A DNA stretch of 64,000 bases from Beroe forskalii. Lineage: Eukaryota; Ctenophora; Nuda; Beroida; Beroidae. The notes beneath the pieces are model-generated. The model was not told the origin of the DNA and searched no databases. It worked only from the letters and a program-made list of their open reading frames with translations. Below, piece after piece: positions 16,053-46,747 of this stretch. Location of the stretch: positions 1 to 64,000 of the forward strand of contig WFMF01000548.1 in NCBI GenBank assembly GCA_011033025.1, in the 5' to 3' direction. Position 1 is the first letter of the stretch. The number at the start of each line of letters is the position of its first letter. A program made the position numbers and the translations under genes.

Positions 16053-16204
16053 CTGAAGAAGTGTGTGATTCTTGAGAAGATGCCACAGTCTAGAGATATC
16101 ACCCCCATGTAGTACATGTGCGAGGTGAAGAAGAGAGTAGCCACCACGTACAACACTGCGAAACATATCCAGAAGTAGATCGTCTGAACGTACACACCCA
16201 CCAC
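16053..16204 (-). CDS. SIDT: SIDT exon 14 (FAVLYVVAT...HMYYMG)
   Basis: The acceptor 'ctacctggcag' starts the exon in phase 0. The product includes YFWICFAVLYVVATLFFTS, a transmembrane helix, and HMYYMGVISLDCGIFSRI, which aligns with the conserved LYYMGRWKLDSGIFRRI region of vertebrate SIDT2. The donor is CAG|GTACTG in phase 2. This is the last SIDT exon recognised; the C-terminal helices, with the conserved His pair of this superfamily, are not visible downstream. Confidence 0.85.
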
Positions 16205-16220
16205 CTGCCAGGTAGAGGGA

Positions 16221-16900
16221 GTGTCAGGAAACCTAAAAACCTAGCAGAGAGGGGTGTCAAGAAACCTAGCAGAGAGGGGTGTCAGAAAACCTAGCAGAGA
16301 GGGGAGTCAGAAAACCTAGCAGAGAGGGGTGTCAGAAAACCTAGCAGAGAGGGGTGTCAGAAAACCTAGCAGAGAGGGGTGTCAGGAAACCTAGCAGAGA
16401 GGGGTGTCAGAAAACCTAGCAGAGAGGGGTGTCAGAAAACCTAGCAGAGAGGGGTGTCAGAAAACCTAGCAGAGAGGGGTGTCAGGAAACCTAGCAGCGA
16501 GGGATGTCAGGAAACCTAGCAGAGTGGGGTGTCAGAAAACCTAGCAGAGAGGGGTGTCAGAAAACCTAGCAGAGAGGGGTGTCAGAAAACCTAGCAGAGA
16601 GGGGTGTCAGAAAACCTAGCAGAGAGGGGTGTCAGAAAACCTAGCAGAGAGGGGTGTCAGAAAACCTAGCAGAGAGGGGTGTCAGAAAACCTAGCAGAGA
16701 GGGGTGTCAGAAAACCTAGCAGAGAGGGGTGTCAGAAAACCTAGCAGAGAGGGGTGTCAGAAAACCTATCAGAGAGGGGTGTCAGAAAACCTAGTAGAGA
16801 GGGTGTCAGAAAACCTATAAAACCTAGCAGGGAGGGGTGTTAGAAAACCTAAAAACCTAGCAGAGGGGTGTCAGAAGGGCTGTAAAAGTATATACCTAGC
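16221..16900. repeat. 25-bp minisatellite at the SIDT exon 14 acceptor, ~26 copies
   Basis: Plus-strand unit 'agcagagaggggtgtcagaa' plus 'aacct'. Read on the SIDT strand each unit contains 'cacccctctctgctag', a pyrimidine tract ending in AG, so each is a potential decoy 3' splice site. The true acceptor ('cactccctctacctggcag') is a diverged version of the same unit. Confidence 0.9.
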
Positions 16901-16990
16901 AGAGGAGGTGTTAGAAAACGTGAAATAGAGTAGAGTGAATGGTTAGAAGCTCTAGAATTGCTGATTGCTGCTAGATATTGCAATGCTTAC

Positions 16991-17157
16991 CTCGATGAAG
17001 ACAGTGAATGATAAGAAGATGTACGCCGTGTAGGCATGGGGGTTGACGTCAGGGTGCCGCAGCTGGTAGATCTTCAGCATGAGCAGCCCAGCCATCAGAT
17101 ACATGAAGGTAGAGTCGAACTGGAAGTTGTAAGCAGTAGGACACACGTGGTACGAAG
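16991..17157 (-). CDS. SIDT: SIDT exon 13 ([19 protein letters not shown])
   Basis: Encodes (A)[19 protein letters not shown] then [20 protein letters not shown] and [16 protein letters not shown], closely matching the most conserved part of SIDT proteins ([20 protein letters not shown] in human SIDT2). The Ser (exon 12), His and Asp of the SxxxH...D motif shared with alkaline ceramidase/PAQR-type membrane hydrolases are present. The exon starts with 2 bases completing the Ala codon from exon 12 and ends in phase 0 at GAG|GTAAGC. Confidence 0.92.
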
Positions 17158-17213
17158 CTGAAAGTAGAAGTTGTAAGCAGTAGGACACACGTGGTACGAA
17201 GCTGAAAGTAGAA
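17123..17213 (-). repeat. Two-copy 44-bp duplication of the exon 13 acceptor and exon start
   Basis: The block containing the pyrimidine tract, the CAG acceptor and the first ~35 coding bases of exon 13 is repeated directly with a period of 44. Only the inner copy continues into the complete exon. Confidence 0.9.
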
Positions 17214-17384
17214 GCTTCTCGTTCAAATTTCTCGGCTCCCTTGGTCCGATGTAAAACATAAATTCATGTTTTAATGCCGCACAGATCGTGTTTAAAAATG
17301 TTATCTATAACACTTACACAACTCGGAACATCTATGATAGCCCAATCCAACCCTAAATTTAGAAGCATTGATGATAAGGCTAAC

Positions 17385-17442
17385 CTGAGAGAAGGCCCTC
17401 CATACACAAGGAAAAGCCCACTGAGTAGTAAATACCGTTGTG
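17385..17442 (-). CDS. SIDT: SIDT exon 12 (GIYYSVGFSLCMEGLLS)
   Basis: A 58-bp exon after 'gctgccccag' encoding HNGIYYSVGFSLCMEGLLS, equivalent to GLFYAMGTALMMEGLLS of human SIDT2. It ends in phase 1 and joins exon 13 in frame (G+CT = Ala). The donor is CAG|GTTAGC. Confidence 0.8.
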
Positions 17443-17679
17443 CTGGGGCAGCCCGTACCTGAACGAGTGTTGGCGTTATTTCCAATGTGGCTGATATTAA
17501 TGTGATGAAGGGTAGGTTGATGTGTATGATGATTTATCGTTAGATATGCACAGTGCAGATATCTTTTGTTACTTATTTACTTATTAACATGAGAGCATGA
17601 TACACTCTGAATGGGACGAAAATATGTAAATTGTAACACCTCATCAGTGGTATGCTCTGATTAGGTGTAAGGATCGCTA

Positions 17680-17890
17680 GGAATCGGTCGGTTAACCGAA
17701 CCGAAACCGAAATACTGGTTAACTGGGCATTTTCAGCCAACCCGAACTGAAACCGAATATTTTGATTTCGCAATTAACCGTTTAGGGAAATCGGTCGGTT
17801 AACCGAACCGAATCCGAAATACCGGTTAACCGGCGTTTTTAGCGAACCGAAACCGTAACCAGATTTATTGAGAAATAGTAACCGGTCGTT
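17680..17890. repeat. 'Aatcggtcggttaaccgaac' repeat
   Basis: Two ~105-base tandem copies rich in palindromic GGTTAACC. They lie in the intron between SIDT exons 11 and 12. Function and class unknown. Confidence 0.7.
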
Positions 17891-18144
17891 TGGTAACGAT
17901 GGCCACGATGGCATTGGTGACTCAGACCAGGTGTGATATCTTTTCGCTACATAACAGTGATCGGGCGATATGTCGTACTCGTATCCTTACAAAATTAGAT
18001 ACAGTGGTGATCTTGTTAACTTAAATTTGGCTATATAGTCCTACAATAAAACAATGTACCCTCGCTAAGTCCAGCACATCTCAACCTGCTGTCTCAGATC
18101 ACAGACTCACAGAGTTGAGGGACAGGCTCGTCAGCCACACTTAC

Positions 18145-18181: not shown

Positions 18182-18234
18182 CTTACAAGTGCCTCTTTCC
18201 TTTATATGTAAGATTTTGAATGTGAAGCACTCAC

Positions 18235-18339: not shown

Positions 18340-18440
18340 CTGAAAAAAATTAGATGTCGTTAGATCGATGAGTATTCAACTGCATACTTTCTCAAAGAAG
18401 AACAGAGTCTAAATACAGAATTCTAATTTCAAACAAAGCC

Positions 18441-18704
18441 TCTACCTGAAGATGTTGTTAAACTGCGAGACCACCCCTAGTGACTCTACCTGAAGATGTT
18501 GTTAAACTGCCAGACCACCCCTAGTGACTCTACCTGAAGATGTTGTTGACCTGGGACACCACCCCTAGTGTCTCTACCTGAAGATGTTGTTAAACTGCGA
18601 GACCACCCCTAGTGACTCTACCTGAAGATGTTGTTGAACTGGGACACCACCCCTAGTGACTCTACCTGAAGATGTTGTTGAACTGGGACACCACCCCTAG
18701 TGGG
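18441..18704 (-). repeat. 44-bp tandem copies of SIDT exon 9 end + donor (6 copies)
   Basis: Six direct copies of a 44-bp unit. On the minus strand each reads 'ctaggggtggt...' then CAGTTCAACAACATCTTCAG and the donor GTAGAG. The first copy is the real end of exon 9. Variants change GTCCCAG to CTCGCAG, which adds an AG just upstream. Copies differ at only 1-6 positions. Confidence 0.95.
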
Positions 18705-18771
18705 CGGGAACACAGGTAGTTGTAGTAGCAGATGTCCTGGTTGCCAGTGAAGTGCACTATCAACTGGATCC
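18666..18771 (-). CDS. SIDT: SIDT exon 9 ([13 protein letters not shown])
   Basis: The acceptor 'actctcccag' joins in phase to exon 8 (G+GG). The exon encodes [20 protein letters not shown] then [14 protein letters not shown], matching [20 protein letters not shown]...FNNIL of human SIDT2. It can end at any of six identical donors; the first gives the frame that joins exon 10. Confidence 0.92.
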
Positions 18772-18862
18772 CTGGGAGAGTATCACATTCAACACTCAAG
18801 ACTCAGGAAATAGGAGAGAAGGAGTGCCTGGATACTATCCAGGCACCCTCTCTTTCATTCTC

Positions 18863-19438
18863 GTAGAATATGGCAATAGGGATCAGGTTCAAATTGGGCA
18901 TTGCACTGACTCACCTGCCACTAGCTGGATGACAGGGAGCGCGTAGAATATGACAATAGGGATCAGGTTCAAATTGGGCATTGCACTGACTCACCTGCCA
19001 CTAGCTGGATGACAGGGAGCGCGTAGAATATGGCAATAGGGATCAGGTTCAAATTGGGCATTGCACTGACTCACCTGCCACTAGCTGGATGACAGGGAGC
19101 GCGTAGAATATGGCAATAGGGATCAGGTTCAAATTGGGCATTGCACTGACTCACCTGCCACTAGCTGGATGACAGGGAGCGCGTAGAATATGGCAATAGG
19201 GATCAGGTTCAAATTGGGCATTGCACTGACTCACCTGCCACTAGCTGGATGACAGGAGCGCGTAGAATATGGCAATAGGGATCAGGTTCAAATTGGGCAT
19301 TGCACTGACTCACCTGTCACTAGCTGGATGACAGGGAGCGCGTAGAATATGGCAATAGGGATCAGGTTCAAATTGGGCATTGCACTGACTCACCTGCCAC
19401 TGACTCACCTGCCACTAGCTGACTCACCTGCCACTAGC
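18863..19438 (-). repeat. 80-bp exon 8-edge satellite, block 1 (~7 copies)
   Basis: Copies of the 80-bp unit described at 23,624-28,719. Near 19,380-19,438 the unit is disrupted by short repeats of 'actcacctgccactagct', and the block is cut by a LINE insertion. Confidence 0.95.
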
Positions 19439-20656
19439 TGTTCGGTTATTTGGCACCCTATCAGCAAAAATCAGTTACACAAATTTGAGTCTATCCAAAA
19501 GAAGGCCATAAAATGGATAAATGGACAACCATTTGATCATTATAGTGATGCCATATATGCTGAAAAACTTAAAGAATTAGATATCTTGCCTTTTAAAATC
19601 AAATTTGCTCTGAATGATTTGTTATTGTTATTTCAAATTATCAATAGATTGATCCCGATTGATTTACCACCTTATTTTTCGATAACCAAGCCTCATGATG
19701 TGAGATTAACGAGAAAAACCTCTGCAATTATTGACAGTACTGATCAAACTCACATCAAATGCAGCATAAAGCCGCACTGTGATAGCTTTAGAAATAGTTT
19801 CTTTTATAGGACCACGATGCTCTGGAATAACATACCATGTGAAATAAGGCAAGATAAATCCTTTGCTGTATTTAAATGTAAACTACGTAGTTTTCTATTG
19901 TCCAGTGACCTAGGTTGGCCTGATTAAAAACTGATAAAACTGCAGGCATAAATATTTCAATGACCCCAGGGGAGTGTCTAGTCGTCAGTATCATCTTGGG
20001 TCACACTTTGTTTCTAGTTCCCAAGTATGTATTTAAATTATATGATCGTACATTCTTGTGTGATCTTGCAGCTGTTGCTAGAGTTTCCTCATAGATAAAG
20101 CTATATTTCCGATTAAAATCAAAGTCTCCATTTTAACTTTTACATTATAACTTTTGTGGACTATGTAACTTAATCTTATAATTATATCGAATTAAGTGAT
20201 GAAAGCCAAAATAATGAGCAATGATTGTCTCAAATGCTTATTAAATTAAATAATTCTAATTTTATAATTATAATTCATTGTCTTATCTCAAATGCTTATT
20301 AAATTAAATAATTCTAATTTTATAATTCTAATTTATTGACTTAATAACTTATTATTATCTAGATATCTTACAGTTTCTAATTGGGCAATTTGTAATTTGA
20401 ATTTTTGCTTTCTAGTCATTACCTACCACACAGTATGAGCCTAAGTTATAAATTAGCCGATATTATTAACATATCATATATGTTTTGATTGATGGTTGTC
20501 AGGCCCTGCTCTTATTACGGTTTCATACTGTGTTGCAGGTTTAGCCTCAATTATGGGGGTTATTTTATAATATTTTATCAGATATTATCCCAGATGATAT
20601 TGTAAGATAATTCTATTTAATTGAAATTTTGAAATAAAAAAAAAAAAAAAAAAAAA
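19439..20656 (+). mobile_element. 5'-truncated LINE with poly(A), inserted in the satellite
   Basis: The insert interrupts the 80-bp array after '...ccactagctg' and ends in a poly(A) run followed by 'agctggatgac', giving a short target duplication (about AGCTG). The plus-strand frame to 19,927 encodes an RT C-terminus: HKFESIQKKAIKWINGQPF, LKELDILPFKIKFALNDL, PHCDSFRNSFFYRTTMLWNN then IPCEIRQDKSFAVFKCKL. About 720 bases of AT-rich 3' UTR follow. The open frame suggests recent insertion. Confidence 0.9.
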
Positions 20657-21470
20657 GCTGGATGACAGGGAGCGAGTAGAATATGGCAATAGGGATCAGG
20701 TTCAAATTGGGCATTGCACTGACTCACCTGCCACTAGCTGGATGACAGGGAGCGCGTAGAATATGGCAATAGGGATCAGGTTCAAATTGGGCATTGCACT
20801 GACTCACCTGCCACTAGCTGGATGACAGGGAGCGCGTAGAATATGGCAATAGGGATCAGGTTCAAATTGGGCATTGCACTGACTCACCTGCCACTAGCTG
20901 GATGACAGGGAGCGCGTAGAATATGGCAATAGGGATCAGGTTCAAATTGGGCATTGCACTGACTCACCTGCCACTAGCTGGATGACAGGGAGCGCGTAGA
21001 ATATGGCAATAGGGATCAGGTTCAAATTGGGCATTGCACTGACTCACCTGCCACTAGCTGGATGACAGGGAGCGCGTAGAATATGGCAATAGGGATCAGG
21101 TTCAAATTGGGCATTGCACTGACTCACCTGCCACTAGCTGGATGACAGGGAGCGCGTAGAATATGGCAATAGGGATCAGGTTCAAATTGGGCATTGCACT
21201 GACTCACCTGCCACTAGCTGGATGATAGGGAGCGCGTAGAATATGGCAATAGGGATCAGGTTCAAATTGGGCATTGCACTGACTCACCTGCCACTAGCTG
21301 GATGACAGGGAGCGCGTAGAATATGGCAATAGGGATCAGGTTCAAATTGGGCATTGCACTGACTCACCTGCCACTAGCTGGATGACAGGGAGCGCGTAGA
21401 ATATGGCAATAGGGATCAGGTTCAAATTGGGCATTGCACTGACTCACCTGCCACTAGCTGGATGACAGGG
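20657..21470 (-). repeat. 80-bp exon 8-edge satellite, block 2 (~10 copies)
   Basis: Continuation of the array interrupted by the LINE, with near-identical units. It ends at a 12-base target duplication (TGGATGACAGGG) of the next insertion. Confidence 0.95.
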
Positions 21471-23623
21471 TCTTAGTCTTAGTAAAACGGCCACAGTCGG
21501 TTTAATCAACCAGGCCAGTGGCAGCCATGCTGAGCATGGAGACTATCCCTAGTACACTAGGTGAAGGGTGTGAACTCCTGGGTGGTTTTTCAGGCCACCC
21601 GAATGCCGGAGATATCCTGGGCTGAGAGTAGCCTACCCGTCCAGGACCTCACTGGACCAGCAAGCCACCAACGCCCCTGGCTTCAAACAGACTGCAAAAC
21701 AAGTCAGTGCTTGCCTGCAGATTAAGTCGGAGATCAGCCGGAGGTGGCTATGTACCACCTCCCTTCATCTGACTGAGCCACAGGGAGATCTGACCCAACC
21801 AGACTGTGTAAATAATATTCCCATTGATTGGAGTTATGCTGGGATCAATGGGCAAAGCCCAGCTATGGGGTACTACCTGGAAAAGAAGAGAGGGAACTGA
21901 CTGATAGTTTTGTGATATTTTTGGTGATGTTTGTGGTGTTGTATAATTGTTCATTAATCTTGGCAATGTTGCTAAATCTGATTTATTGGGACTAGTCGGT
22001 TCCCGTCCTACGGACGGCGAATGATGGCAGCCGCATGAGCTAACGGCCACATGTCCCTTTGACAGTAGTTTAACCGTGCGAGTTTGGAGGGGAAATTCGA
22101 AACTTTAATTTCTGCGGAAAAAAGCTTCCCACGCCCCCAACGGTAACCCAATATTGCCGACAATATTCTCAAAACCTTTACTCATCATAAGCAACTCCAT
22201 AGCGAAGGAATTTTGAAAAAATTCGAAACTTTATTTTTTGCGAAAAAAAGGGCGTGGCCTCCCACGCCCCTCAGGGTGACCCAATAATTCGGACAAAATT
22301 CTCAAAATTTTTATTCATCATAAGGAACTCGATGGCGAAGGAATTTTGAAAAATTCGAAACTTTAAATTTTGCGGAAAAAAGGGCGTGGCCTCCCACGCC
22401 CCTCAGGGTGACCCAATAATTCGGACAAAATTCTCAAAACTTTTATTCATCATAAGCAACTCGATAGCGAAGGAATTTTGAAAAATTCGAAAGTTTAATT
22501 TTGCGGAAAAAGGGCGTGGCCTCCCGCCCCTTAGGGTGACCCAATAATTCGGACAAAATTCTCAAAATTTTTATTCATCATAAGGAACTCGATGGCGAAG
22601 GAATTTTGAAAAAAATTCGGAAGTTTAATTTTGCGAAAAAAGGGCGTGGCCCCCACTCCCTCAGGGTGGCCGAAAAATTATCTCGGTATTTTTCTAATTT
22701 ATTATTAAGTTTTTGCAACACGACGGAAAAATAATTTTGTTGCCTACTTGAAATCAGTAACGCCACATATAAATAAATATATATATATATATTAACAACA
22801 CGCATTATATATAGTAAGATGGAACATCCTTTCGAAATTGGCTGCAGTTTGTACTGTAGTATTTATTTCTATGGGTCTAGATGTACAGAAATTTGTTGCC
22901 TGACGGAAGTGGTGAGGTAATGGGACTTAGCTGGTTTGAAGTACAGAGTACCCAGCAGGTGAGGGTGATGAAAGTGGGAGATAACGAAATAAAATGTTGT
23001 TTCCTGATAATTGGATATAATATGGGGAGAATTGGACAGTGCGCTTAGTTTTAAAGCAGTAAGAGGGTTGATAATGCAGGGGTCGCCAATGTAACTGCTG
23101 CTTCCAGAATGAGACAAAATTATTCCATGATGGTGCTGAGGAACCTTGGAGGATCTGAACTTTGGAGGGATCTGGAGAAAATCTTATCAGGGGTTCTTGA
23201 GTGGCCTTTGAGAGTTTGAGGAGGAAGCCATATTGTTTTTTGTAGTACAAAGTGAGTACTGACTACCGGGCTGTGCCCATGTTGTTACAGTATATAATAT
23301 GTATTTATGGGTTGATCATTCCCTTTGAGGACAGTCTTCAAGTTAGTGTACCTGAATTATAGTCAATTATTAAGTAAAAAGATAAAAGAATAGTATGGAT
23401 ATAGAAAGAGGGGGCTAGGGTGGTTATAATGTAAAATCAAAAGTTAATATACCGTGAGGGGCTGGATAGTGAAGTTATGATACTTAGCTGGTGAGTGGTA
23501 CTAGAGAGTACCCAGCAGGTGGAAGGAGTGGATGATACCAACTGCATGGGGAAGTGCAGTTGGCACACTCGGGAGGGGGAGGTGCGTGAAGCCCCAACTG
23601 GGAAGAACCAGGTCCCTGCCCCG
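21471..23623 (-). mobile_element. 2.15-kb retroelement-like insertion with 12-bp TSD
   Basis: The insert is flanked by TGGATGACAGGG at 21,459-21,470 and 23,624-23,635, so it is a clean insertion into the satellite. On the minus strand it ends in 'ttttactaagactaaga', a short-repeat tail like those of some LINE-dependent elements, which sets its orientation. Inside are about five ~120-bp tandem units (22,090-22,680), an AT microsatellite near 22,775, and two related segments about 570 bases apart containing 'cacctgctgggtactct'. No complete ORF was recognised; it is non-autonomous or truncated. Confidence 0.7.
22090..22680. repeat. ~120-bp tandem repeat, 5 copies
   Basis: Units run 'gggcgtggcctcccacgccc', then 'ctcagggtgacccaataatt', then 'attcatcataaggaactcga' and 'gcgaaggaattttgaaaa'. 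They lie inside the 21,471-23,623 insertion. Confidence 0.85.
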
Positions 23624-26600
23624 TGGATGACAGGGAGCGCGTAGAATATGGCAATAGGGATCAGGTTCAAATTGGGCATTGCACTGACTCACCTGCCACT
23701 AGCTGGATGACAGGGAGCGCGTAGAATATGGCAATAGGGATCAGGTTCAAATTGGGCATTGCACTGACTCACCTGCCACTAGCTGGATGACAGGGAGCGC
23801 GTAGAATATGGCAATAGGGATCAGGTTCAAATTGGGCATTGCACTGACTCACCTGCCACTAGCTGGATGACAGGGAGCGTAGAATATGGCAATAGGGATC
23901 AGGTTCAAATTGGGCATTGCACTGACTCACCTGCCACTAGCTGGATGACAGGAGCGCGTAGAATATGGCAATAGGGATCAGGTTCAAATTGGGCATTGCA
24001 CTGACTCACCTGCCACTAGCTGGATGACAGGGAGCGCGTAGAATATGGCAATAGGGATCAGGTTCAAATTGGGCATTGCACTGACTCACCTGCCACTAGC
24101 TGGATGACAGGGAGCGCGTAGAATATGGCAATAGGGATCAGGTTCAAATTGGGCATTGCACTGACTCACCTGCCACTAGCTGGATGACAGGGAGCGCGTA
24201 GAATATGGCAATAGGGATCAGGTTCAAATTGGGCATTGCACTGACTCACCTGCCACTAGCTGGATGACAGGGAGCGCGTAGAATATGGCAATAGGGATCA
24301 GGTTCAAATTGGGCATTGCACTGACTCACCTGCCACTAGCTGGATGACAGGGAGCGCAGAATATGGCAATAGGGATCAGGTTCAAATTGGGCATTGCACT
24401 GACTCACCTGCCACTAGCTGGATGACAGGAGCGCGTAGAATATGGCAATAGGGATCAGGTTCAAATTGGGCATTGCACTGACTCACCTGCCACTAGCTGG
24501 ATGACAGGGAGCGCGTAGAATATGGCAATAGGGATCAGGTTCAAATTGGGCATTGCACTGACTCACCTGCCACTAGCTGGATGACAGGGAGCGCGTAGAA
24601 TATGGCAATAGGGATCAGGTTCAAATTGGGCATTGCACTGACTCACCTGCCACTAGCTGGATGACAGGGAGCGCGTAGAATATGGCAATAGGGATCAGGT
24701 TCAAATTGGGCATTGCACTGACTCACCTGCCACTAGCTGGATGACAGGGAGCGCGTAGAATATGGCAATAGGGATCAGGTTCAAATTGGGCATTGCACTG
24801 ACTCACCTGCCACTAGCTGGATGACAGGGAGCGCGTAGAATATGGCAATAGGGATCAGGTTCAAATTGGGCATTGCACTGACTCACCTGCCACTAGCTGG
24901 ATGACAGGGAGCGCGTAGAATATGGCAATAGGGATCAGGTTCAAATTGGGCATTGCACTGACTCACCTGCCACTAGCTGGATGACAGGGAGCGCGTAGAA
25001 TATGGCAATAGGGATCAGGTTCAAATTGGGCATTGCACTGACTCACCTGCCACTAGCTGGATGACAGGGAGCGCGTAGAATATGGCAATAGGGATCAGGT
25101 TCAAATTGGGCATTGCACTGACTCACCTGCCACTAGCTGGATGACAGGGAGCGCGTAGAATATGGCAATAGGGATCAGGTTCAAATTGGGCATTGCACTG
25201 ACTCACCTGCCACTAGCTGGATGACAGGGAGCGCGTAGAATATGGCAATAGGGATCAGGTTCAAATTGGGCATTGCACTGACTCACCTGCCACTAGCTGG
25301 ATGACAGGGAGCGCGTAGAATATGGCAATAGGGATCAGGTTCAAATTGGGCATTGCACTGACTCACCTGCCACTAGCTGGATGACAGGGAGCGCGTAGAA
25401 TATGGCAATAGGGATCAGGTTCAAATTGGGCATTGCACTGACTCACCTGCCACTAGCTGGATGACAGGGAGCGCGTAGAATATGGCAATAGGGATCAGGT
25501 TCAAATTGGGCATTGCACTGACTCACCTGCCACTAGCTGGATGACAGGGAGCGCGTAGAATATGGCAATAGGGATCAGGTTCAAATTGGGCATTGCACTG
25601 ACTCACCTGCCACTAGCTGGATGACAGGAGCGCGTAGAATATGGCAATAGGGATCAGGTTCAAATTGGGCATTGCACTGACTCACCTGCCACTAGCTGGA
25701 TGACAGGGAGCGCGTAGAATATGGCAATAGGGATCAGGTTCAAATTGGGCATTGCACTGACTCACCTGCCACTAGCTGGATGACAGGGAGCGCGTAGAAT
25801 ATGGCAGGGACGGTTCAAATTGGGCATTGCACTGACTCACCTGCCACTAGCTGGATGATGTGAAATTGGGTTCAAATTGGGCATTGCACTGACTCACCTG
25901 CCACTAGCTGGATGACAGGGAGCGCGTAGAATATGGCAATAGGGATCAGGTTCAAATTGGGCATTGCACTGACTCACCTGCCACTAGCTGGATGACAGGG
26001 AGCGCGTAGAATATGGCAATAGGGATCAGGTTCAAATTGGGCATTGCACTGACTCACCTGCCACTAGCTGGATGACAGGAGCGCGTAGAATATGGCAATA
26101 GGGATCAGGTTCAAATTGGGCATTGCACTGACTCACCTGCCACTAGCTGGATGACAGGGAGCGCGTAGAATATGGCAATAGGGATCAGGTTCAAATTGGG
26201 CATTGCACTGACTCACCTGCCACTAGCTGGATGACAGGGAGCGCGTAGAATATGGCAATAGGGATCAGGTTCAAATTGGGCATTGCACTGACTCACCTGC
26301 CACTAGCTGGATGACAGGGAGCGCGTAGAATATGGCAATAGGGATCAGGTTCAAATTGGGCATTGCACTGACTCACCTGCCACTAGCTGGATGACAGGGA
26401 GCGCGTAGAATATGGCAATAGGGATCAGGTTCAAATTGGGCATTGCACTGACTCACCTGCCACTAGCTGGATGACAGGGAGCGCGTAGAATATGGCAATA
26501 GGGATCAGGTTCAAATTGGGCATTGCACTGACTCACCTGCCACTAGCTGGATGACAGGGAGCGCGTAGAATATGGCAATAGGGATCAGGTTCAAATTGGG

Positions 26601-28719
26601 CATTGCACTGACTCACCTGCCACTAGCTGGATGACAGGGAGCGCGTAGAATATGGCAATAGGGATCAGGTTCAAATTGGGCATTGCACTGACTCACCTGC
26701 CACTAGCTGGATGACAGGGAGCGCGTAGAATATGGCAATAGGGATCAGGTTCAAATTGGGCATTGCACTGACTCACCTGCCACTAGCTGGATGACAGGGA
26801 GCGCGTAGAATATGGCAATAGGGATCAGGTTCAAATTGGGCATTGCACTGACTCACCTGCCACTAGCTGGATGACAGGGAGCGCGTAGAATATGGCAATA
26901 GGGATCAGGTTCAAATTGGGCATTGCACTGACTCACCTGCCACTAGCTGGATGACAGGGAGCGCGTAGAATATGGCAATAGGGATCAGGTTCAAATTGGG
27001 CATTGCACTGACTCACCTGCCACTAGCTGGATGACAGGGAGCGCGTAGAATATGGCAATAGGGATCAGGTTCAAATTGGGCATTGCACTGACTCACCTGC
27101 CACTAGCTGGATGACAGGGAGCGCGTAGAATATGGCAATAGGGATCAGGTTCAAATTGGGCATTGCACTGACTCACCTGCCACTAGCTGGATGACAGGGA
27201 GCGTAGAATATGGCAATAGGGATCAGGTTCAAATTGGGCATTGCACTGACTCACCTGCCACTAGCTGGATGACAGGGCAGAATATGGCAATAGGGATCAG
27301 GTTCAAATTGGGCATTGCACTGACTCACCTGCCACTAGCTGGATGACAGGAGCGCGTAGAATATGGCAATAGGGATCAGGTTCAAATTGGGCATTGCACT
27401 GACTCACCTGCCACTAGCTGGATGACAGGGAGCGCGTAGAATATGGCAATAGGGATCAGGTTCAAATTGGGCATTGCACTGACTCACCTGCCACTAGCTG
27501 GATGACAGGGAGCGCGTAGAATATGGCAATAGGGATCAGGTTCAAATTGGGCATTGCACTGACTCACCTGCCACTAGCTGGATGACAGGGAGCGCGTAGA
27601 ATATGGCAATAGGGATCAGGTTCAAATTGGGCATTGCACTGACTCACCTGCCACTAGCTGGATGACAGGGGAGCGCGTAGAATATGGCAATAGGGATCAG
27701 GTTCAAATTGGGCATTGCACTGACTCACCTGCCACTAGCTGGATGACAGGGAGCGCGTAGAATATGGCAATAGGGATCAGGTTCAAATTGGGCATTGCAC
27801 TGACTCACCTGCCACTAGCTGGATGACAGGGAGCGCGTAGAATATGGCAATAGGGATCAGGTTCAAATTGGGCATTGCACTGACTCACCTGCCACTAGCT
27901 GGATGACAGGGAGCGCGTAGAATATGGCAATAGGGATCAGGTTCAAATTGGGCATTGCACTGACTCACCTGCCACTAGCTGGATGACAGGGAGCGCGTAG
28001 AATATGGCAATAGGGATCAGGTTCAAATTGGGCATTGCACTGACTCACCTGCCACTAGCTGGATGACAGGGAGCGCGTAGAATATGGCAATAGGGATCAG
28101 GTTCAAATTGGGCATTGCACTGACTCACCTGCCACTAGCTGGATGACAGGGAGCGCGTAGAATATGGCAATAGGGATCAGGTTCAAATTGGGCATTGCAC
28201 TGACTCACCTGCCACTAGCTGGATGACAGGGAGCGCGTAGAATATGGCAATAGGGATCAGGTTCAAATTGGGCATTGCACTGACTCACCTGCCACTAGCT
28301 GGATGACAGGAGCGCGTAGAATATGGCAATAGGGATCAGGTTCAAATTGGGCATTGCACTGACTCACCTGCCACTAGCTGGATGACAGGGAGCGCGTAGA
28401 ATATGGCAATAGGGATCAGGTTCAAATTGTGCATTGCACTGACTCACCTGCCACTAGCTGGATGACAGGGAGCGCGTAGAATATGGCAATAGGGATCAGG
28501 TTCAAATTGGGCATTGCACTGACTCACCTGCCACTAGCTGGATGACAGGGAGCGCGTAGAATATGGCAATAGGGATCAGGTTCAAATTGGGCATTGCACT
28601 GACTCACCTGCCACTAGCTGGATGACAGGGAGCGCGTAGAATATGGCAATAGGGATCAGGTTCAAATTGGGCATTGCACTGACTCACCTGCCACTAGCTG
28701 GATGACAGGGAGCGCGTAG
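23624..28719 (-). repeat. 80-bp exon 8-edge satellite, block 3 (~64 copies)
   Basis: A highly homogeneous 80-bp unit. On the SIDT strand each copy contains the coding end of exon 8 (NLIPIAIFYALPVIQLVA), the splice donor GGCAG|GTGAGTCAG, and about 25 bases of intron ('tgcaatgcccaatttgaac'). Most copies are identical; variants are 1-4 base deletions in 'cagggagcgcg' and one rearranged pair near 25,800-25,870. No copy carries a recognisable acceptor. Confidence 0.97.
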
Positions 28720-31700: not shown

Positions 31701-32495
31701 AAGTTTGAATCTATAAATTGTTTTTCAAATTACTAAATAAGTGCACATTTTATCAGTTTCAGCTAATTGATTAAGGCTCCAGTGAGCCTCCGTATAGCCT
31801 CCACTAGCCTCCATTAGGCTCCATATTAAAGCTTTAGCCTGCACGAAAATGTTATGTTTCAGTTTCTGTGGAGGCTAATGGAGGATTATTCTTCAGTGGA
31901 GGCTAAATCAAAATTTTAGCCTCAATAGAGGTTGAGTGGAGGCTAATGGAAGCTGGTGGGCTCTTATTATCCACAACAGTGGAGGCTTTTTTCGAAAATT
32001 AGACTATTGCAACCATTAGCCTCAATGGAGGCAAATTTTTGAAATTACCCTACACTCAGCCTCCGGACCCATGGATACTAATGCAGGCTAATTTTGGTCA
32101 TGTTCCTGTGGTACCATTTTGCCGAAGACACGTTATCTGATGAACTCAAGTTAAAGATAAGTAGATAGTAGATACATGTATCCATGCCTGGGAATTATAA
32201 GCAACTCTTTTCTCGAACGAAAAGGTTCTCGAAATTTCTAACCCTGGTCCTTCAGCCTAAGGATACCTTTTTGTAAACAGTATGGTGCTTGGACAGGGAA
32301 GGTCCAGGCGTAAAGCCTCGAAGGGGAAGGTCTGAATGAAAATTAAGCATTGGATATCGATTCAGCTCCTTTGAAAACCATTATACACACGTCCTGTATG
32401 CACTGTGGACAAGAAATCAGAAATTACAAAATTTTTGGTTTATTTTTGGCAAACTTTGGCAAATTTTGGCAAACTTTGGCAAACTATGGTATTTT
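28720..32495. mobile_element. Large foldback-type element, copy A
   Basis: The element sits in the 80-bp satellite. Its left end is G-rich then 'taaggcaaactttggcaaac', forming a quasi-palindromic module with 'gtttgccaaagtttgcc' around a hairpin ('actttttttggcaaactcc...'). The right end (about 32,430-32,490) has the matching 'ggcaaactttggcaaa' run but lacks the terminal G/C stretch, so it may be truncated or rearranged. Sequences further inside each end ('gctgaatcgat') also match in inverse. The interior is mostly a ~21-bp minisatellite (29,210-31,700). No transposase was seen; it is non-autonomous. A second copy, reversed, lies at 61,650-64,000. Confidence 0.75.
29210..31700. repeat. ~21-bp minisatellite 'gtgtggagcctagtggaggc'
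   Basis: A long array with many point variants and higher-order blocks (e.g. 'agaggcggctgtgtggagcc' recurring). Left parts include reversed segments ('ggctccactcagcct'), so orientation switches within the element. All open frames through it (WSLVEAV and EPSGGCV repeats) are repeat artefacts. Confidence 0.9.
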
Positions 32496-32499
32496 CAAA

Positions 32500-33304
32500 T
32501 TGGGCATTGCAATAGGGATCAGGTGACTCACCTGCCACTAGCTGGATGACAGGGAGCGCGTAGAATATGGCAATAGGGATCAGGTTCAAATTGGGCATTG
32601 CACTGACTCACCTGCCACTAGCTGGATGACAGGGAGCGCGTAGAATATGGCAATAGGGATCAGGTTCAAATTGGGCATTGCACTGACTCACCTGCCACTA
32701 GCTGGATGACAGGGAGCGCGTAGAATATGGCAATAGGGATCAGGTTCAAATTGGGCATTGCACTGACTCACCTGCCACTAGCTGGATGACAGGGAGCGCG
32801 TAGAATATGGCAATAGGGATCAGGTTCAAATTGGGCATTGCACTGACTCACCTGCCACTAGCTGGATGACAGGAGCGCGTAGAATATGGCAATAGGGATC
32901 AGGTTCAAATTGGGCATTGCACTGACTCACCTGCCACTAGCTGGATGACAGGGAGCGCGTAGAATATGGCAATAGGGATCAGGTTCAAATTGGGCATTGC
33001 ACTGACTCACCTGCCACTAGCTGGATGACAGGAGCGCGTAGAATATGGCAATAGGGATCAGGTTCAAATTGGGCATTGCACTGACTCACCTGCCACTAGC
33101 TGGATGACAGGAGCGCGTAGAATATGGCAATAGGGATCAGGTTCAAATTGGGCATTGCACTGACTCACCTGCCACTAGCTGGATGACAGGGAGCGCGTAG
33201 AATATGGCAATAGGGATCAGGTTCAAATTGGGCATTGCACTGACTCACCTGCCACTAGCTGGATGACAGGGAGCGCGTAGAATATGGCAATAGGGATCAG
33301 GTTC
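32500..33304 (-). repeat. 80-bp exon 8-edge satellite, block 4 (~10 copies, incl. founder)
   Basis: The array begins, in gene direction, with the genuine end of exon 8 and its donor at 33,248-33,249 and continues as direct copies into the intron. It is broken at 32,490-32,530 where the foldback element abuts a scrambled unit. Confidence 0.95.
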
Positions 33305-33552
33305 CACTGGTAGAGTCTGTACTTGTACTCGTTGCTGTTGCAGCTGAGGTCTGCCACCGTCAGCTCCACCTTGGAGCGTCTGATCTCCGTCACCTCGTTC
33401 AGATCCTCGCAGTAGTCCACACTTCCCAAGCTATCCTGCGTCTTGTGACGCTGGTGCTCACCCCGCGACACGGAGTCCCCACTGCGGCCCCCTTTAGGGT
33501 CGTGTGATGTCGCTCCGTATGAGGGCTTGATGTCCTCGGGAGCAGCAATCTC
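33249..33552 (-). CDS. SIDT: SIDT exon 8 (cytosolic loop + transmembrane helix)
   Basis: The acceptor 'ttacaccccgcag' joins exon 7 in phase 0. The 304-bp exon encodes an acidic/polar loop (EIAAPEDIKPSYGATSHDPK...), then RRSKVELTVADLSCNSNEYK and YRLYQWNLIPIAIFYALPVI followed by QLVAG. It aligns with [20 protein letters not shown] and [20 protein letters not shown] of human SIDT2. The donor GGCAG|GTGAGT is the first of about 90 near-identical donors spaced 80 bases apart. Read-through into the intron meets a stop within 11 codons (VAGESVQCPI-stop). Confidence 0.95.
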
Positions 33553-33556
33553 CTGC

Positions 33557-35080
33557 GGGGTGTAAAGTTATACAGAGAAACCTGATCTCCTGAGGACAAC
33601 AGGGGCGTAAAGTTATACAGAGAAACCTGATCTCCTGAGGACAACAGGGGTGTAAAGTTATACAGAGAAACCTGATCTCCTGAGGACAACAGGGGTGTAA
33701 AGTCATACAGAGAAACCTGATCTCTTGAGGACAACAGGGGTGTAAAGTTATACAGAGAAACCTGATCTCTTGAGGACAACAGGGGTGTAAAGTTATACAG
33801 AGAAACCTGATCTCCTGAGGACAACAGGGGTGTAAAGTTATACAGAGAAACCTGATCTCCTGAGGACAACAGGGGTGTAAAGTCATACAGAGAAACCTGA
33901 TCTCTTGAGGACAACAGGGTGTAAAGTTATACAGAGAAACCTGATCTCTTGAGGACAACAGGGTGTAAGTTATACAGAAAACCTGATCTCCTGAGGACAA
34001 CAGGGGTGTAAAGTTATACAGAGAAACCTGATCTCCTGAGGACAACAGGGGTGTAAAGTCATACAGAGAAACCTGATCTCTTGAGGACAACAGGGTTTAA
34101 AGTTATACAGAGAAACCTGATCTCCTGAGGACAACAGGGGTGTAAAGTTATACAGAGAAACCTGATCTCTTGAGGACAATAGGGGTATAAAGTTATACAG
34201 AGCAACCTGATCTCCTGCGGACAACAGGGTTTAAAGTTATACAGAGAAACCTGATCTCCTGAGGACAACAGGGGTAACGTTATACAGAGAAACCTGATCT
34301 CCTGAGGACAACAGGGGTGTAAAGTTATACAGAGAAACCTGATCTCCTGAGGACAACAGGGTGTAAAGTTATACAGAGAAACCTGATCTCCTGAGGACAA
34401 CAGGGGCGTAAAGTTATACAGAGAAACCTGATCTCCTGAGGACAACAGGGGTGTAAAGTTATACAGAGAAACCTGATCTCCTGAGGACAACAGGGGTGTA
34501 AAGTCATACAGAGAAACCTGATCTCTTGAGGACAACAGGGGTGTAAGTTATACAGAGAAACCTGATCTCTTGAGGACAACAGGGGTGTAAGTTATACAGA
34601 GAAACCTGATCTCCCTGAGGACAACAGGGTGCAAAGTTATACAGAGAAACCTGATCTCCTGAGGACAACAGGGGTGTAAAGTCATACAGAGAAACCTGAT
34701 CTCTTGAGGACAACAGGGTTTAAATTTATACAGAGAAACCTGATCTCCTGAGGACAACAGGGGTGTAAAGTTATACAGAGAAACCTGATCTCTTGAGGAC
34801 AACAGGGGTATTAAGTTATACAGAGCAACCTGATCTCCTGCGGACAACAGGGTTTAAAGTTATACAGAGAAACCTGATCTCCTGAGGACAACAGGGGTAA
34901 CGTTATACAGAGAAACCTGATCTCCTGAGGACAACAGGGGTGTAAAGTTATACAGAGAAACCTGATCTCCTGAGGACAACAGGTGTAAAGTTATCCAGAG
35001 AAACCTGATCTCCTGAGGACAACAGGGGTGTAAAGTTATACAGAGAAACCTGATCTCCTGAGGACAACAGGAGTGTAAAG
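33557..35080 (-). repeat. 45-bp minisatellite at the SIDT exon 8 acceptor, ~33 copies
   Basis: On the gene strand the unit reads 'tctctgtataactttacacc' then 'cctgttgtcctcag' and GAGATCAGGTT. The true acceptor is 'ttacaccccgcag' followed by GAGATTGC. Each unit thus carries a pyrimidine-rich AG followed by the first five bases of exon 8. One more unit lies at 40,603-40,650, beyond an inserted block, so the array was split. Confidence 0.95.
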
Positions 35081-35082
35081 TT

Positions 35083-35846
35083 ATATAGATTCGTCCGGGT
35101 TATTGCGTGAGGATTTAGCCAGCGGGAGGGGATAGAAAATAGAGCGATAGACACGCTGGCATAATCCCTCTATCAAATACATTCACTGTCTCTATCACAT
35201 AGTTTCAGTGTATTGTACTCCTTTCAAACAACACGCACTCTTACTCGCAACATGTATACCAAATGTTTCGTTCCCACGAGAATCTCTCTAAACATGTAAT
35301 TACCGTCCCACGTGACTCGCACACGTGCCACTGTTACTGTACCAAATCAAGGTCACGTGTTGCGCGCGCGCACGTGCCACTGGTTTCGGAGCAATATCCT
35401 TCAGCAAACGGTTTCTCATTCTCTCATACACAGTTTTTGCACTTAATTTCTGTTTCGTTTCGCCGTTCTGGCTCTGCTTGTTAACACGGCGAGAAGAGGT
35501 CAATTTACCTCTTTTGCATGCTCCTGCAGATTATCGTAATGCCCTAATATTCGTCGATATTGTGTTTGTTGTTTTGATTCTTTGATTGATATTGTTTTTG
35601 TGGTTGCATTTGTTATCGTACAATAGTCCTCTTTGAAACATACTCCTGTTTAATTCATAGACTTATTTCTGTTCATGAACCATCCTTCTCCTGCCATCCT
35701 CAAGTCAATTCTGCAAAGTTTCAAATCAACCAATCAAAGCACTGAATCTCTTGAAAAGCTGAAATGCTTGTTCTGCCAATTGTGTTATCAGTTATTTCCA
35801 TTAGTTGTGTTTTTAGACTCTTATGCAATAACCCGGACTCATCTAT
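35083..35846. mobile_element. MITE-like element with ~20-bp inverted ends
   Basis: The left end 'tatagattcgtccgggttat' and right end 'aataacccggactcatctat' are inverted with two mismatches. The interior has no RT or transposase ORF. It is inserted at the edge of the 45-bp array and abuts the next element. Confidence 0.65.
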
Positions 35847-36769
35847 AATACATAGACACGGTGCTCTCAGAGTCTATTTAAGTGTAACCCCTCGACTTCG
35901 TCTCGGGATTACTAGTAAGGGAATTATTTGGATATAGGCATGGTATCTGGGAAAAAATTATTGACAAAGGTTTGAGTGGTTCAATTGACTCTAATAGGTG
36001 TCTAGAGTCACCAAAAAAATTGATTCAAATTTTCGACTTTCGGAAACCTCAGGGTGGCCACGCCCATTTTTGAGCGTGGGAATTTTAAGAAAAATTGCTA
36101 AAAAATTCATTCAAAAGCGAATGGGGCATGATTATACTCTAATCCCATGTTTTTTGGCACGAGAAATCGTTTAGAACCGATATCTAAGTCCTAAAACCAA
36201 TATTTTGGCCGTTATGGACCACGCCCACTTTTTGTCATCAATATTATGGCCGAAAAGCCAAAATTATTATACGGCTTCCACTAGGGCATGATTATACTTG
36301 ATTCCTAGGTTTTTTGGCACGAGAAATCGATTAAAGCAATTACCAAAACGCTAGAATTAATATTTTGGGCATTTTGGACCTCGCCCACTTTTTGGCACGA
36401 GCGTAATGGCCGAAAATCCGAAGTTATTATATGGCTTCAACTAGCGCATGATTATACTTGAACCCTAGTTTTTTTGGCATGATTATACTTGATTCCTAGG
36501 TTTTTTTGCACGAGAAATCGATTAAAGCAATTACCAAAACGCTAGAATTAATATTTTGGGCATTTTGCACCACGCTCCATTTTTGGCACGAGCATTATGG
36601 CCGAAAATGCGAAGTTATTGTATGCAGTATGGCTTCAACTCACCAAAAGCATGTCTTATTCAGTGATTCTCTCATGCTTTTCCTTAAGATTCTACTTCTA
36701 GGCGATTGCGAATTTCCAAGGTTCTTGAGTTCCATAAGGCTACCCGAGAGTGTTGCTCAGAAGTAAAAT

Positions 36770-38490: not shown

Positions 38491-39242
38491 TTATTAATTG
38501 CATTAATCGATTGCTCGGGCCATAACACCAAGTATTCAAGTATAGTTATGCCCTAGTTGAAGCTATATAATAATTTTGGATTTTTGACCATAATATTTGG
38601 GCGAGGTCCAAAATGCCCAAAATATTAATTCTAGCGTTTTGTTAATTACTTTAATCGATTTCTCGTGCCAAAAAAACTAGGTTTCAAGTATAATCATGCG
38701 CTAGTTGAAGCCATATAATAACTTCGGATTTTCGGCCATTATGCTCGTGCCAAAAGTGGGCGAGGTCCAAAATTCCCAAAATATTAATTCTAGCGTTTTG
38801 GTAATTGCTTTAATCGATTTCTCGTGCCAAAAACCTAGGATTCAAGTATAATCATGCCCTAGTTGAAGCCATATAATAATTTTGGCTTTTCGGCCATAAT
38901 ATTGATGACAAAAGTGGGCGTGGCCCATAACGGCCAAAATATTGGTTTTAGGACTCAGATATCGGTTCTAAACAATTTCTTGTGCCAAAAAACATAGGAT
39001 TAGAGTATAATCATGCCCTATTTGCTTTTGAATGAATTTATAGCAAATTTTCTTAAAAATTCCCACGGTCAAAAATGGGCGTGGCCACCCTGAGGTTTCC
39101 GAAAGTCGAAAATTTGAATCAATTTTTTTGGTGACTCTAGACACCTATTAGAGTCAATTGAACCACTCAAACCTTTGTCAATAATTTTTTCCCAGGCCCT
39201 CCACACAATTCCCTTACTATACACAAAGAATGAAAACTCGTG

Positions 39243-40394: not shown

Positions 40395-40605
40395 TCGACT
40401 ACTATAGTACTTTAGAGGCTCAAACTCACCGCAGAAATATGATTTAGAGCACTCGGCTCAGCTTCGCTTCGCCTCGCACTCTAAATCATTTAAATGTCTC
40501 CAGCTTCGCTGTCGACATTTAAATATTATATAGAGCCCTGCTGTCGCAGGGCTCTATATTCTTATATTGTCTGCGTGTTCGTCTTACGCCTCTAAAGTAC
40601 ATATA
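40395..40605. repeat. Cloverleaf-forming element C2
   Basis: The outer stem GTACTTTAGAGGC (40,407-40,419) pairs with 40,588-40,600. Inside are three hairpins: ATGATTTAGAG (40,439) with 40,479-40,489; ATTTAAATGTC (40,488) with 40,514-40,524; and TATAGAGCCCTGC (40,529) with 40,546-40,558. It shares the flank 'cgttcgacta.tat' and the start 'tactttag' with C1 but has different arm sequences. Confidence 0.8.
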
Positions 40606-40811
40606 GAGAAACCTGATCTCCTGAGGACAACAGGGGTAACGTTATACAGAGAAAGTCGGTACTTGGTGCCCCAACAACGTACTGATCACCGTCTTCGAAC
40701 TCATTTGAGAACTTAGTTTAATGTATTTACGTACAGTTTAAGAAAACTGAATCAGTTCTTGTAACTTGGTGTCAAGGTAACAACTAAATTAGTTTTTGAC
40801 AGCAAACTCAC

Positions 40812-40881
40812 CCCTGGCTCGTCAACATCCCCATCAGACAGCGAAGTGTACTCGAACTCAATGTTAAAACCCCGGATAAAC
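40812..40881 (-). CDS. SIDT: SIDT exon 7 (EFEYTSLSDGDVDEPG)
   Basis: The acceptor 'tctttaaacgcag' leads to 70 bases encoding (K)FIRGFNIEFEYTSLSDGDVD then EPG. It completes the Lys codon from exon 6 and ends in phase 0 at GGG|GTGAGT. The EYTSLSDGD segment corresponds to the acidic YDTLTDID loop between the first two helices in vertebrate SIDTs. Confidence 0.85.
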
Positions 40882-40905
40882 CTGCGTTTAAAGATTACAT
40901 GAGAC

Positions 40906-42660
40906 AGGGTGACACAGGGTGACATGATACACAGGGTGACATGATACACAGGGTGACATGATACACAGGGTGACATGAGACACAGGGTGACATGATACAC
41001 AGAGTGATATGAGACACAGGGTGAAATGATACACAGGGTGACATGAGACACAGGGTGACATGATACACAGGGTGACATGAGACACAGGGTGACATGAGAC
41101 ACAGGGTGGCATGATACACAGGGTGACATGAGACACAGGGTGACATGATACACAGGGTGACATGATACACAGGGTGACATGATACACAGGGTGACATGAT
41201 ACACAGGGTGACATGAGACACAGGGTGACATGAGACACAGGGTGACATGAGACACAGGGTGACATGATACACAGGGTGACATGATACACAGGGTGACATG
41301 AGACACAGGGTGACATGAGACACAGGGTGACATGAGACACAGGGTGAGATGAGACACAGGGTGACATGATACACAGGGTGACATGATACACAGGGTGACA
41401 TGATACACAGGGTGACATGATACACAGAGTGACATGATACACAGAGTGACATGATACACAGGGTGACATGATACACAGGGTGACATGATACACAGGGTGG
41501 CATGAGACACAGGGTGACATGAGATACAGGGTGACATGATACACAGGGTGACATGATACACAAGGTGACATGAGACACAGGGTGACATGAGACACAGGGT
41601 GACATGAGACACAGGGTGACATGAGACACAGGGTGACACAGGGTGACATGATACACAGGGTGACATGAGACACAGGGTGACATGATACACAGGGTGACAT
41701 GATACACAGGGTGACATGATACACAAGGTGACATGATACACAGGGTGACATGAGACACAGGGTGACATGAGACACAGGGTGACATGATACACAGGGTGAC
41801 ATGATACACAGGGTGACATGAGACACAGGGTGACATGATACACAGGGTGACATGATACACAGGGTGACATGAAACACAGGGTGACATGAGACACAGGGTG
41901 ACATGATACACAGGGTGACATGATACACAGGGTGACATGAAACACAGGGTGACATGAGACACAGGGTGACATGATACACAGGGTGACATGATACACAGGG
42001 TGACATGATACACAGGGTGACATGAGACACAGGGTGACATGAGACACAGGGTGACATGATACACAGGGTGACATGACACAGAGTGACATGATACACAGGG
42101 TGACATGATACACAGGGTGATATGAGACACAGGGTGACACAGGGTGACATGATACACAGGGTGACATGAGACACAGGGTGACATGATACACAGGGTGACA
42201 TGAGACACAGGGTGACATGAGACACAGGGTGGCATGATACACAGGGTGGCATGAGACACAGGTGACATGGGACACAGGTGACATGACATGACATGAGGAA
42301 CAGGGTGACATGAGACACAGGGTGACATGATACACAGGGTGACATGAGACACAGGGTGACATGACACAGAGTGACATGATACACAGGGTGACATGAGACA
42401 CAGGGTGACATGATACACAGGGTGACATGATACACAGGGTGACATGAGACACAGGGTGACATGAGACACAGGGTGACATGAGACACAGGGTGACATGATA
42501 CACAGGGTGACATGATACACAGGGTGACATGGGACACAGGGTGACATGATACACAGGGTGACATGATACACAGGGTGACATGATACACAGGGTGACATGA
42601 TACACAGGGTGACATGAGACACAGGGTGACATGAGACACAGGGAGACACAGGGTGACATG
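40906..42660 (-). repeat. 17-bp minisatellite downstream of the exon 6 donor, ~100 copies
   Basis: Units 'tgacatgatacacaggg' and 'tgacatgagacacaggg' alternate irregularly. All three minus frames stay open for hundreds of codons (CVSCHPVYHVTL-type), a trivial result of a 17-base unit without stops; it is not a gene. The array fills most of the intron between exons 6 and 7, up to about 25 bases from exon 7. Confidence 0.95.
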
Positions 42661-42905
42661 GGACAAAGATTAGAAGTAGGAACTAAAGGGCACCTACTTC
42701 TCAGTCTCAAGGAGACACAGGGTGACATGGGACAAAGATTAGAAGTAGGAACTAAAGGGCACCTACTTCTCAGTCTCAGGACTGCACACAGCGGGTGATA
42801 TGGGACAAAAAGATTAGAAATAGGAACTAAGGGCACCTACTTCATGGTCTCAGAGACACAGGGTGACATGGGACAAGGGATTACTGTTACTGTAGGAAAC
42901 AAAGG
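42661..42905 (-). repeat. Three degenerate copies of the SIDT exon 6 end + donor
   Basis: The motif 'gcacctacttctcagtctca' (exon 6 end and donor, reversed) recurs at about 42,690, 42,759 and, degenerate ('cacctacttcatggtctca'), 42,833, then at the genuine site 42,906. Spacers contain 17-bp array units. This is the transition from exon edge to minisatellite. Confidence 0.9.
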
Positions 42906-42913
42906 GCACCTAC

Positions 42914-42976
42914 TTCTCAGTCTCAAGGATGGTCCCCACGTAAGCGAGTAGGTAGATGATGAGTAGGAGTCCGACA
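42914..42976 (-). CDS. SIDT: SIDT exon 6 (first transmembrane helix)
   Basis: The acceptor 'ttttctaatcag' leads to 63 bases encoding VGLLLIIYLLAYVGTILETE, the first membrane helix after the ectodomain. The exon ends AA|GTAGGT, phase 2, and joins exon 7 in frame (LETEKFIRGF). Confidence 0.85.
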
Positions 42977-43006
42977 CTGATTAGAAAACAATTCTAAACT
43001 GTATGG

Positions 43007-43112
43007 TGGACTCCACCTGACCAATTACATCGTTCTTAATCCTGGAGGAATGGGTATGTCATGGTGGACTCCACCGAGATTATCACATTCTTAATCTTGG
43101 AGGAATGGGGGT
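43007..43112 (-). CDS. SIDT: SIDT exon 5 candidate, duplicated in tandem
   Basis: Two ~54-bp copies each carry 'cccattcctcca(a/g)g' followed by a short coding stretch: the upstream copy reads KIKNVIISVESTMTY, the downstream one IKNDVIGQVESTIQF. This resembles the pre-membrane segment of SIDT (QKTLSVLVSQAVTSEAY in human SIDT2). Donors are unclear, so limits and which copy is used are uncertain. Confidence 0.5.
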
Positions 43113-46710: not shown

Positions 46711-46747
46711 AGTTATAATATTTACGTAATTAGTTGACAGCACTTAC

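Follow-up and report, generated by a model that had tools for sequence, protein, structure and literature searches.

Exon-edge tandem arrays, probably minisatellites of the mirage kind, at many splice junctions of an SIDT gene and at splice edges of dynein, CCT and myosin genes

Results

An SIDT gene with tandem arrays at its exon edges

The window analyzed here, bases 1 to 64000 of contig C634 (110,485 bp) in an assembly of 216 Mb and 1134 contigs, carries on its minus strand an SIDT1/2-like RNA-channel gene, many of whose splice junctions are spanned or abutted by tandem arrays that contain the edge of the neighboring exon. Thirteen translated and joined pieces of this gene align with human SIDT1 (query residues 41-613 against human residues 60-667, E = 1.1e-111), and from the end of exon 8 onward the pieces delimited by the exon-adjacent splice sites match the human protein almost gap-free. 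Exon 14 is the last SIDT exon recognized, and no match to the C-terminal part of the SIDT family model was found in the window beyond 16,043, where the model is covered up to position 438. Exons for model positions 442-594 lie at C634:99,552-100,678 on the same strand, upstream of exon 1 and thus out of order, and complement those of the window; we take this displacement as misassembly or rearrangement. Arrays were called with Tandem Repeats Finder (TRF), and their edges were then checked against the sequence. The exons and arrays on which the argument rests are as follows; the basis for each is given in brackets, and a slash within a motif marks the splice junction.

16053..16204, minus strand: SIDT exon 14 (SIDT1 homology, edge check)
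16236..16817, minus strand: array preceding the exon 14 acceptor, 23 copies of a 25-bp unit that contains CTCTCTGCTAG/GT; further partial units reach about 16887 (TRF, shuffles)
17123..17214, minus strand: duplication at the exon 13 start, 44 bp x 2, 9 nt of acceptor and 35 nt of exon (TRF, edge check)
18440..18702, minus strand: array at the exon 9 end, 44 bp x 6 (TRF, edge check)
18666..18771, minus strand: SIDT exon 9 (SIDT1 homology, edge check)
18862..33304, minus strand: array from the exon 8 end through intron 8, 80 bp, about 90 copies (TRF, copy count and identity)
33249..33552, minus strand: SIDT exon 8, ending in IFYALPVIQLVAG, donor CAG/GTGAGTCAG (SIDT1 homology, edge check)
33557..35089, minus strand: 34 copies of a 45-bp unit, up against the exon 8 acceptor (TRF, edge check, shuffles)
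40600..40655, minus strand: remnant of the 45-bp unit near the 5′ end of intron 7 (sequence read directly)
40912..42648, minus strand: 17-bp array, about 104 copies, continuing the intron part of the exon-6-end unit (TRF, edge check)
42642..42925, minus strand: array at the exon 6 end, about 69 bp x 4, diverged (TRF, edge check)
43003..43109, minus strand: duplication in the exon 5 region, 55 bp x 1.9, of which either copy could be the used exon (TRF)
44913..45057, minus strand: exact copy (145/145 nt) of the exon 2 end and intron 2 start at 46713-46857 (self-BLAST)

The largest array begins at the end of exon 8, where the 80-bp unit consists of the last 56 nt of the exon followed by 24 nt of intron, including the donor CAG/GTGAGT. 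Its TRF blocks (18862-19440, 20656-21470, 23624-25858, 25869-28719 and 32524-33304) total about 91 copies; BLAST recovers 85 copies at 85% or more of unit coverage, with a mean identity of 99.6% and 66 of them perfect, and CAGGTGAGT occurs 93 times on the strand of the SIDT gene and not once on the opposite strand. The array accounts for roughly half of intron 8 (14.5 kb) and is broken up by three unrelated inserts. One of these has a flanking direct repeat of 11-12 bp and another ends in poly-A, from which it follows that at least those two entered an 80-bp array that already existed. The third (28720-32523) holds 21-bp satellite arrays between TTTGGCAAAC-type repeats, and the same parts lie in opposite orientation at 61656-64000; the pair suggests a mobile element carrying satellite.

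At two further donors the units have the same composition. The 44-bp unit at the end of exon 9 joins 37 exon nt to 7 intron nt and is present in six copies. At the end of exon 6, a unit of about 69 bp was counted by TRF as 4.0 copies (83% matches) and by BLAST as only two copies at 85% of the length, and the 17-bp array follows on from its intron part. A non-adjacent copy of an exon edge was also seen: the end of exon 2 and its donor recur exactly about 1.8 kb away, inside intron 2.

Acceptors are affected as well. Exon 13 starts with a 44-bp unit of 9 intron and 35 exon nt in two exact copies. The exon 8 acceptor is abutted by the 45-bp array, in which TRF counts 34 copies and BLAST 31. The unit of this array holds CAGGAGAT, that is, the acceptor and the first five exon nt (CAG/GAGAT), and an equally good match arose in 3 of 300 shuffles. 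The 25-bp array before exon 14 (23 copies) ends, according to TRF, 31 bp from the junction, and the intervening stretch aligns weakly to the unit, with 1 of 300 shuffles doing as well. The exon 5 junction as read would leave an intron too short to be plausible. Among the displaced C-terminal exons outside the window, the one that reads TDFISSPKPLYMDRF (C634:100490-100678) has a 44-bp acceptor array of about 60 copies that share about 16 exon nt.

These observations confirm, for donors and acceptors alike, what an earlier note on this DNA had claimed from the sequence alone, namely that arrays seeded by the exon edge occur at many SIDT junctions. With copy numbers from 2 to about 100, its statement that all stages from duplication to satellite coexist also stands. 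For exon 6 it had described three copies followed by a 17-bp array; the succession of the two arrays was found as described, and the number of copies was not.

TRF arrays, whatever their kind, occupy 98%, 74%, 71% and 69% of introns 6, 13, 8 and 9, respectively, and only 0-2% of introns 1, 2, 3 and 10. Six of the 23 SIDT edges have a spanning or abutting array against 1.6 expected, a value reached in 6 of 3000 random trials, although this test is biased because the gene was chosen by the earlier reader for its arrays. In two SIDT paralogs, on C468 and C216, a comparison of coordinates found no array within 40 bp of their five exon hits. Two further SIDT hits lie on C504 and at C216:113916.

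Some other features of the window were judged by eye. Positions 8800-11400 of the window resemble a degraded, homopolymer-rich second copy of 11500-13000 and are probably a low-quality assembled duplicate. In intron 7, positions 35900-39200 appear to form a large inverted repeat with internal 21-bp arrays, like a fold-back element.

Arrays at splice edges of dynein, CCT and myosin genes

Profile searches of the genome returned 46 rows for the CCT chaperonin, 94 for the dynein domain AAA_6 and 83 for the myosin head. DNA was taken around the best 30 rows each for CCT and dynein, in 10-kb stretches at C602 and C2, and in four smaller stretches (three myosin, one C441). Loci were chosen by model score or exon number with repeats ignored, the exception being the 2.1-kb C441 stretch, which was taken for its repeated hits. 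We excluded six loci with long open frames (L012, L022, L040, L045-L047) and the dynein rows that are repeated copies within C441 arrays, and we left the kinase family (136 rows, many of them whole-domain single-frame hits) out of the edge statistics. The resulting sample used 43 of 46 CCT, 50 of 94 dynein and 20 of 83 myosin rows in 28 merged stretches totaling 130,785 bp, with 93 arrays of period at least 10 and TRF score at least 40. A scored splice site was available at 169 of 205 exon edges, and the 36 edges without one were left out; an array within 10 bp of an edge was counted as abutting.

By script, 13 edges were spanned and 5 abutted, and reading these 18 candidates by eye removed one abutting case, leaving arrays at 17 of 169 edges (10%; 13 spanning, 4 abutting). 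After this correction, 11 of 83 acceptors and 6 of 86 donors are spanned or abutted, and removing the C441 stretch, which contributes one edge, leaves 16 of 168. The dropped case was C173:212231, whose true edge lies about 21 nt from the array; the script also misplaced C441:50850 (true position about 50837, still spanned), and as only edges near arrays were read by eye, some of the remaining edges may be misplaced too. The donor at C691:746372 was taken from where a long open frame stops and is uncertain as a splice site. Units with the anatomy seen at SIDT exons 6, 8, 9 and 13 and at the exon at C634:100.5 kb recur in all three surveyed families. Examples are a dynein donor on C790 (DNLK/GTACGG, 26-bp unit), dynein acceptors on C163 (49 bp x 22, with 41 exon nt) and C489 (37 bp x 3), a myosin acceptor on C225 (34 bp x 8) and a CCT acceptor on C184 (40 bp x 23, with 3 exon nt).

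A separate observation is that very long open frames of 787 to 3715 aa occur at C534:80398, C26:9056 and C1024:1425165 (dynein) and at C621:78939 (SIDT), for genes that are many-introned elsewhere in the assembly. These copies may be retrogenes or DNA of another eukaryote.

Excess of arrays at junctions

When the arrays were re-placed at random, with no more than one period of an array allowed into known coding sequence, a mean of 5.6 edges was hit and at most 13 in 2000 trials, against the 17 observed. With stricter array scores, with 20% hidden coding sequence, or with one gene per pair of copies, 0 or 1 of 500 trials reached the observed value. Measured against the density of array ends in the adjoining intron, the excess was smaller: 13-14 ends fell between -30 and +10 relative to an edge, against an expectation of 7.0 (P = 0.020 to 0.008). 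The density of exon-proximal array ends is 2.54 per kb up to 10 bp from an edge and 0.6-1.2 per kb deeper in the introns. The excess at junctions is thus two- to threefold and not overwhelming. Both recurrence in other genes, which the earlier note had proposed as a check, and placement at splice edges beyond uniform expectation were therefore found.

Across the genome, CAGGTAAGT repeated three times at a spacing of 20-50 bp has 175 matches and the reversed motif 13, with single counts of 1734 and 1365. At the level of arrays, 6 donor arrays among 100 of the 175 matches compare with 3 control arrays among the 13 control matches (P = 0.33). We do not rely on this genome-wide comparison, because its matches are clustered and the difference between arrays is not significant. 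One of these donor arrays, C248:400,078-401,127, has by our own reading a unit formed of a kinase-like exon end (EGGDLHTWLSAR) followed by GTAAGT.

Array and single-copy states in near-identical genes

Near-identical copies, whether alleles or duplicated genes, differ in array copy number. Two CCT genes on C558, 82-98% identical in aligned blocks, differ at a donor, where a 37-bp unit of 12 exon and 25 intron nt is present in 2.9 copies in one and in a single copy in the other; the same pair shows the reverse arrangement at an acceptor, where a 31-bp array faces a single copy. On C441, the dynein copy with a 62-bp acceptor array also has about 7 donor units of 86 bp, against 3 in its counterpart, whose acceptor is single. 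In the former, the intron at C441:50.7-53.7 kb (L073, L075) is built from an exon-edge array at each end, the two facing each other and joining in chimeric units, and BLAST finds no counterpart there of the roughly 400-bp intron body kept by the copy at C441:58-61 kb. In a pair on C580, the array is present in both copies.

Discussion

The arrays described here are probably exon-edge minisatellites of the kind called mirages, that is, unremarkable tandem duplications of short segments, retained because splicing still works at the copy next to the exon. Such a duplication (units here of about 26-86 bp) would happen to take in one edge of an exon, be it the end or the start, and the splice site that belongs to it. 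An intact splice site would remain in the copy next to the exon, so that the protein would be unchanged, and the surplus copies would become intron, being tolerated rather than favored; duplications lying wholly inside exons would be purged. Surplus copies could then multiply, plausibly through slippage and unequal or template-switching exchange, until an array may fill its intron, and in one dynein gene may have done so from both ends. The anatomy of the units supports this explanation in SIDT and in the dynein, CCT and myosin genes, as does the coexistence of single-copy and array states in near-identical genes.

Several observations weigh against this explanation. If duplications across junctions were simply tolerated, arrays should not be enriched there, but the enrichment is two- to threefold. 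No clear microhomology was found at the founder breakpoints of the C558 donor, the sole pair that could be read cleanly, and slippage is thus not demonstrated. The CCT gene on C184, which carries the 23-copy acceptor array, is 92-95% identical to its counterpart on C447 where the two align, but their intron 3′ ends do not align, and this pair therefore shows no simple single-copy precursor. The phases of the N-terminal SIDT exons 2-5 do not all close, and that part of the gene model is provisional.

The excess raises the question of whether duplications also form more readily at junctions, where breaks, R-loops or stalled polymerases could seed them and introns would grow inward from their splice sites. 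We regard this as an unlikely main cause. The number of edges with arrays, which no random trial attained, the crowding of array ends within 10 bp of edges and the surplus of spaced CAGGTAAGT triples all favor it, but the excess is only about twofold when neighboring intron serves as the reference, and the genome-wide pattern counts matches that resolve into a nonsignificant difference between arrays. The excess may reflect some formation bias, or tolerance measured against imperfect null models. Selection in favor of decoy splice sites, which might for instance adjust splicing or alternative splicing, seems very improbable. The 80-bp copies are 99.6% identical and just 1 of their 28 differences falls in the 24-nt intron part, but recent amplification alone would give high identity; moreover, 10 differences in the 31 copies of the 45-bp array hit the G of the acceptor AG, and gene copies exist without the array carried by their partner. 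Selection on decoys was considered as a reading of the 80-bp difference profile and rejected. Neither of the causes put forward in the earlier note, an active process at splice sites or decoy selection, was borne out, simple tolerance of junction-crossing duplications being a possible and weaker cause.

It is also very doubtful that the repeats were invented or inflated by a poor long-read assembly. The apparently corrupted second copy at 8.8-11.4 kb of the window and the out-of-order C-terminal SIDT exons on the same contig are what such an assembly might contain, but arrays with differing units occur in many contigs, and the inserts in the 80-bp array, with their direct repeat of 11-12 bp and their poly-A end, look as expected for insertion into a real array. 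That an introner-like mobile element bearing splice sites seeds the arrays is likewise very unlikely. A 14-mer, CCCTCGTGTTTCAG, is common to the acceptor arrays of a CCT gene (C558:177839-177914) and a myosin gene (C225:1033085-1033234), but among 40 of the 173 shared 14-mers it is the sole one to cross families, the other 39 joining two CCT copies, and the other units that we read consist of the local exon edge or intron end.

Mirages were described in the lancelet genes Adh3 and TnC, the globins BflGb6 and BflGb9, and PGBD5 (PMC3087553, PMC3902484). They are minisatellites that span an exon–intron boundary and include the splice site, at 5′ and 3′ boundaries, with copy numbers that differ between haplotypes and with splicing reported as undisturbed; 3 and 6 copies are given for BflGb6 and 2-7 for PGBD5. 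The units described here likewise cross the junction and take in its splice site, at donors and acceptors alike. The suggestion in the earlier note that 3′ splice sites set this gene apart from lancelet mirages is therefore wrong, as the published cases include both boundaries (PMC3087553, PMC3902484). Unlike in the lancelet cases described in these papers, an exon-edge unit here reaches about 90 copies and kilobase introns are largely built of it; by the criterion used here, six junctions are affected in one gene, together with one on a displaced C-terminal exon; about 10% of edges carry arrays in the wider sample; and one intron is filled from both sides. What may be new is the scale and frequency, the anatomy of mirages at both boundaries being already known. 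Within the open-access literature, which leaves out most subscription journals, the name mirage was used in this sense for lancelets alone among the matches listed, and neither such a scale in one gene nor such a frequency in a genome was met there. PMC1636649, PMC12783039 and PMC4039745 deal with different phenomena.

Two related systems differ in ways that bear on the comparison. In human paralogs within segmental duplications, exons and introns are extended by minisatellites averaging 30 bp x 4, of which some lie at an exon–intron boundary, and novel introns were proposed to result (PMC2812944). Those repeats are half coding and of few copies, in paralogs compared with transcripts, unlike the long intronic arrays of splice sites found here. 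Introns can also be gained by tandem genomic duplication of exon segments bearing AGGT (PMC3443670; PMC4974935 appears to treat the same kind of event). The likeness lies in short duplications that include exon sequence and splice-like signals, and the difference in that a new intron arises there within an exon, whereas in the present genes an intron that is already there grows out from one of its splice sites.

The host itself is probably not a lancelet or another bilaterian, to judge from its sequences. At near full length, the genome's best matches to the Antp homeodomain reach 50-51% identity, with one 36-residue partial match at 58% (26 matches in all), and lancelets have near-identical Hox homeodomains. 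Mitochondrial COX1 (C1134:40-1344, with four in-frame TGA codons) is 51% identical to a demosponge-type sequence. Such divergence, taken with the weak homeodomain matches, would suit a ctenophore or a calcareous sponge, though this is guesswork. A bolder view, which we offer as tentative and on balance doubtful, is that in a host that is probably non-bilaterian splice junctions may be a preferred birthplace of arrays through a process tied to transcription or splicing, with much of the intron length being amplified exon edge that grows inward from one end or from both and with dozens of decoys ignored by the spliceosome.

These results suggest that what had been a curiosity of a handful of lancelet genes, with few-copy relatives in human paralogs, is frequent in a remote lineage of animals, where about a tenth of splice edges may be affected. 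A single genome may thus make testable how introns grow, whether junctions are hot spots of tandem duplication and how the spliceosome chooses among tens of near-identical donors.

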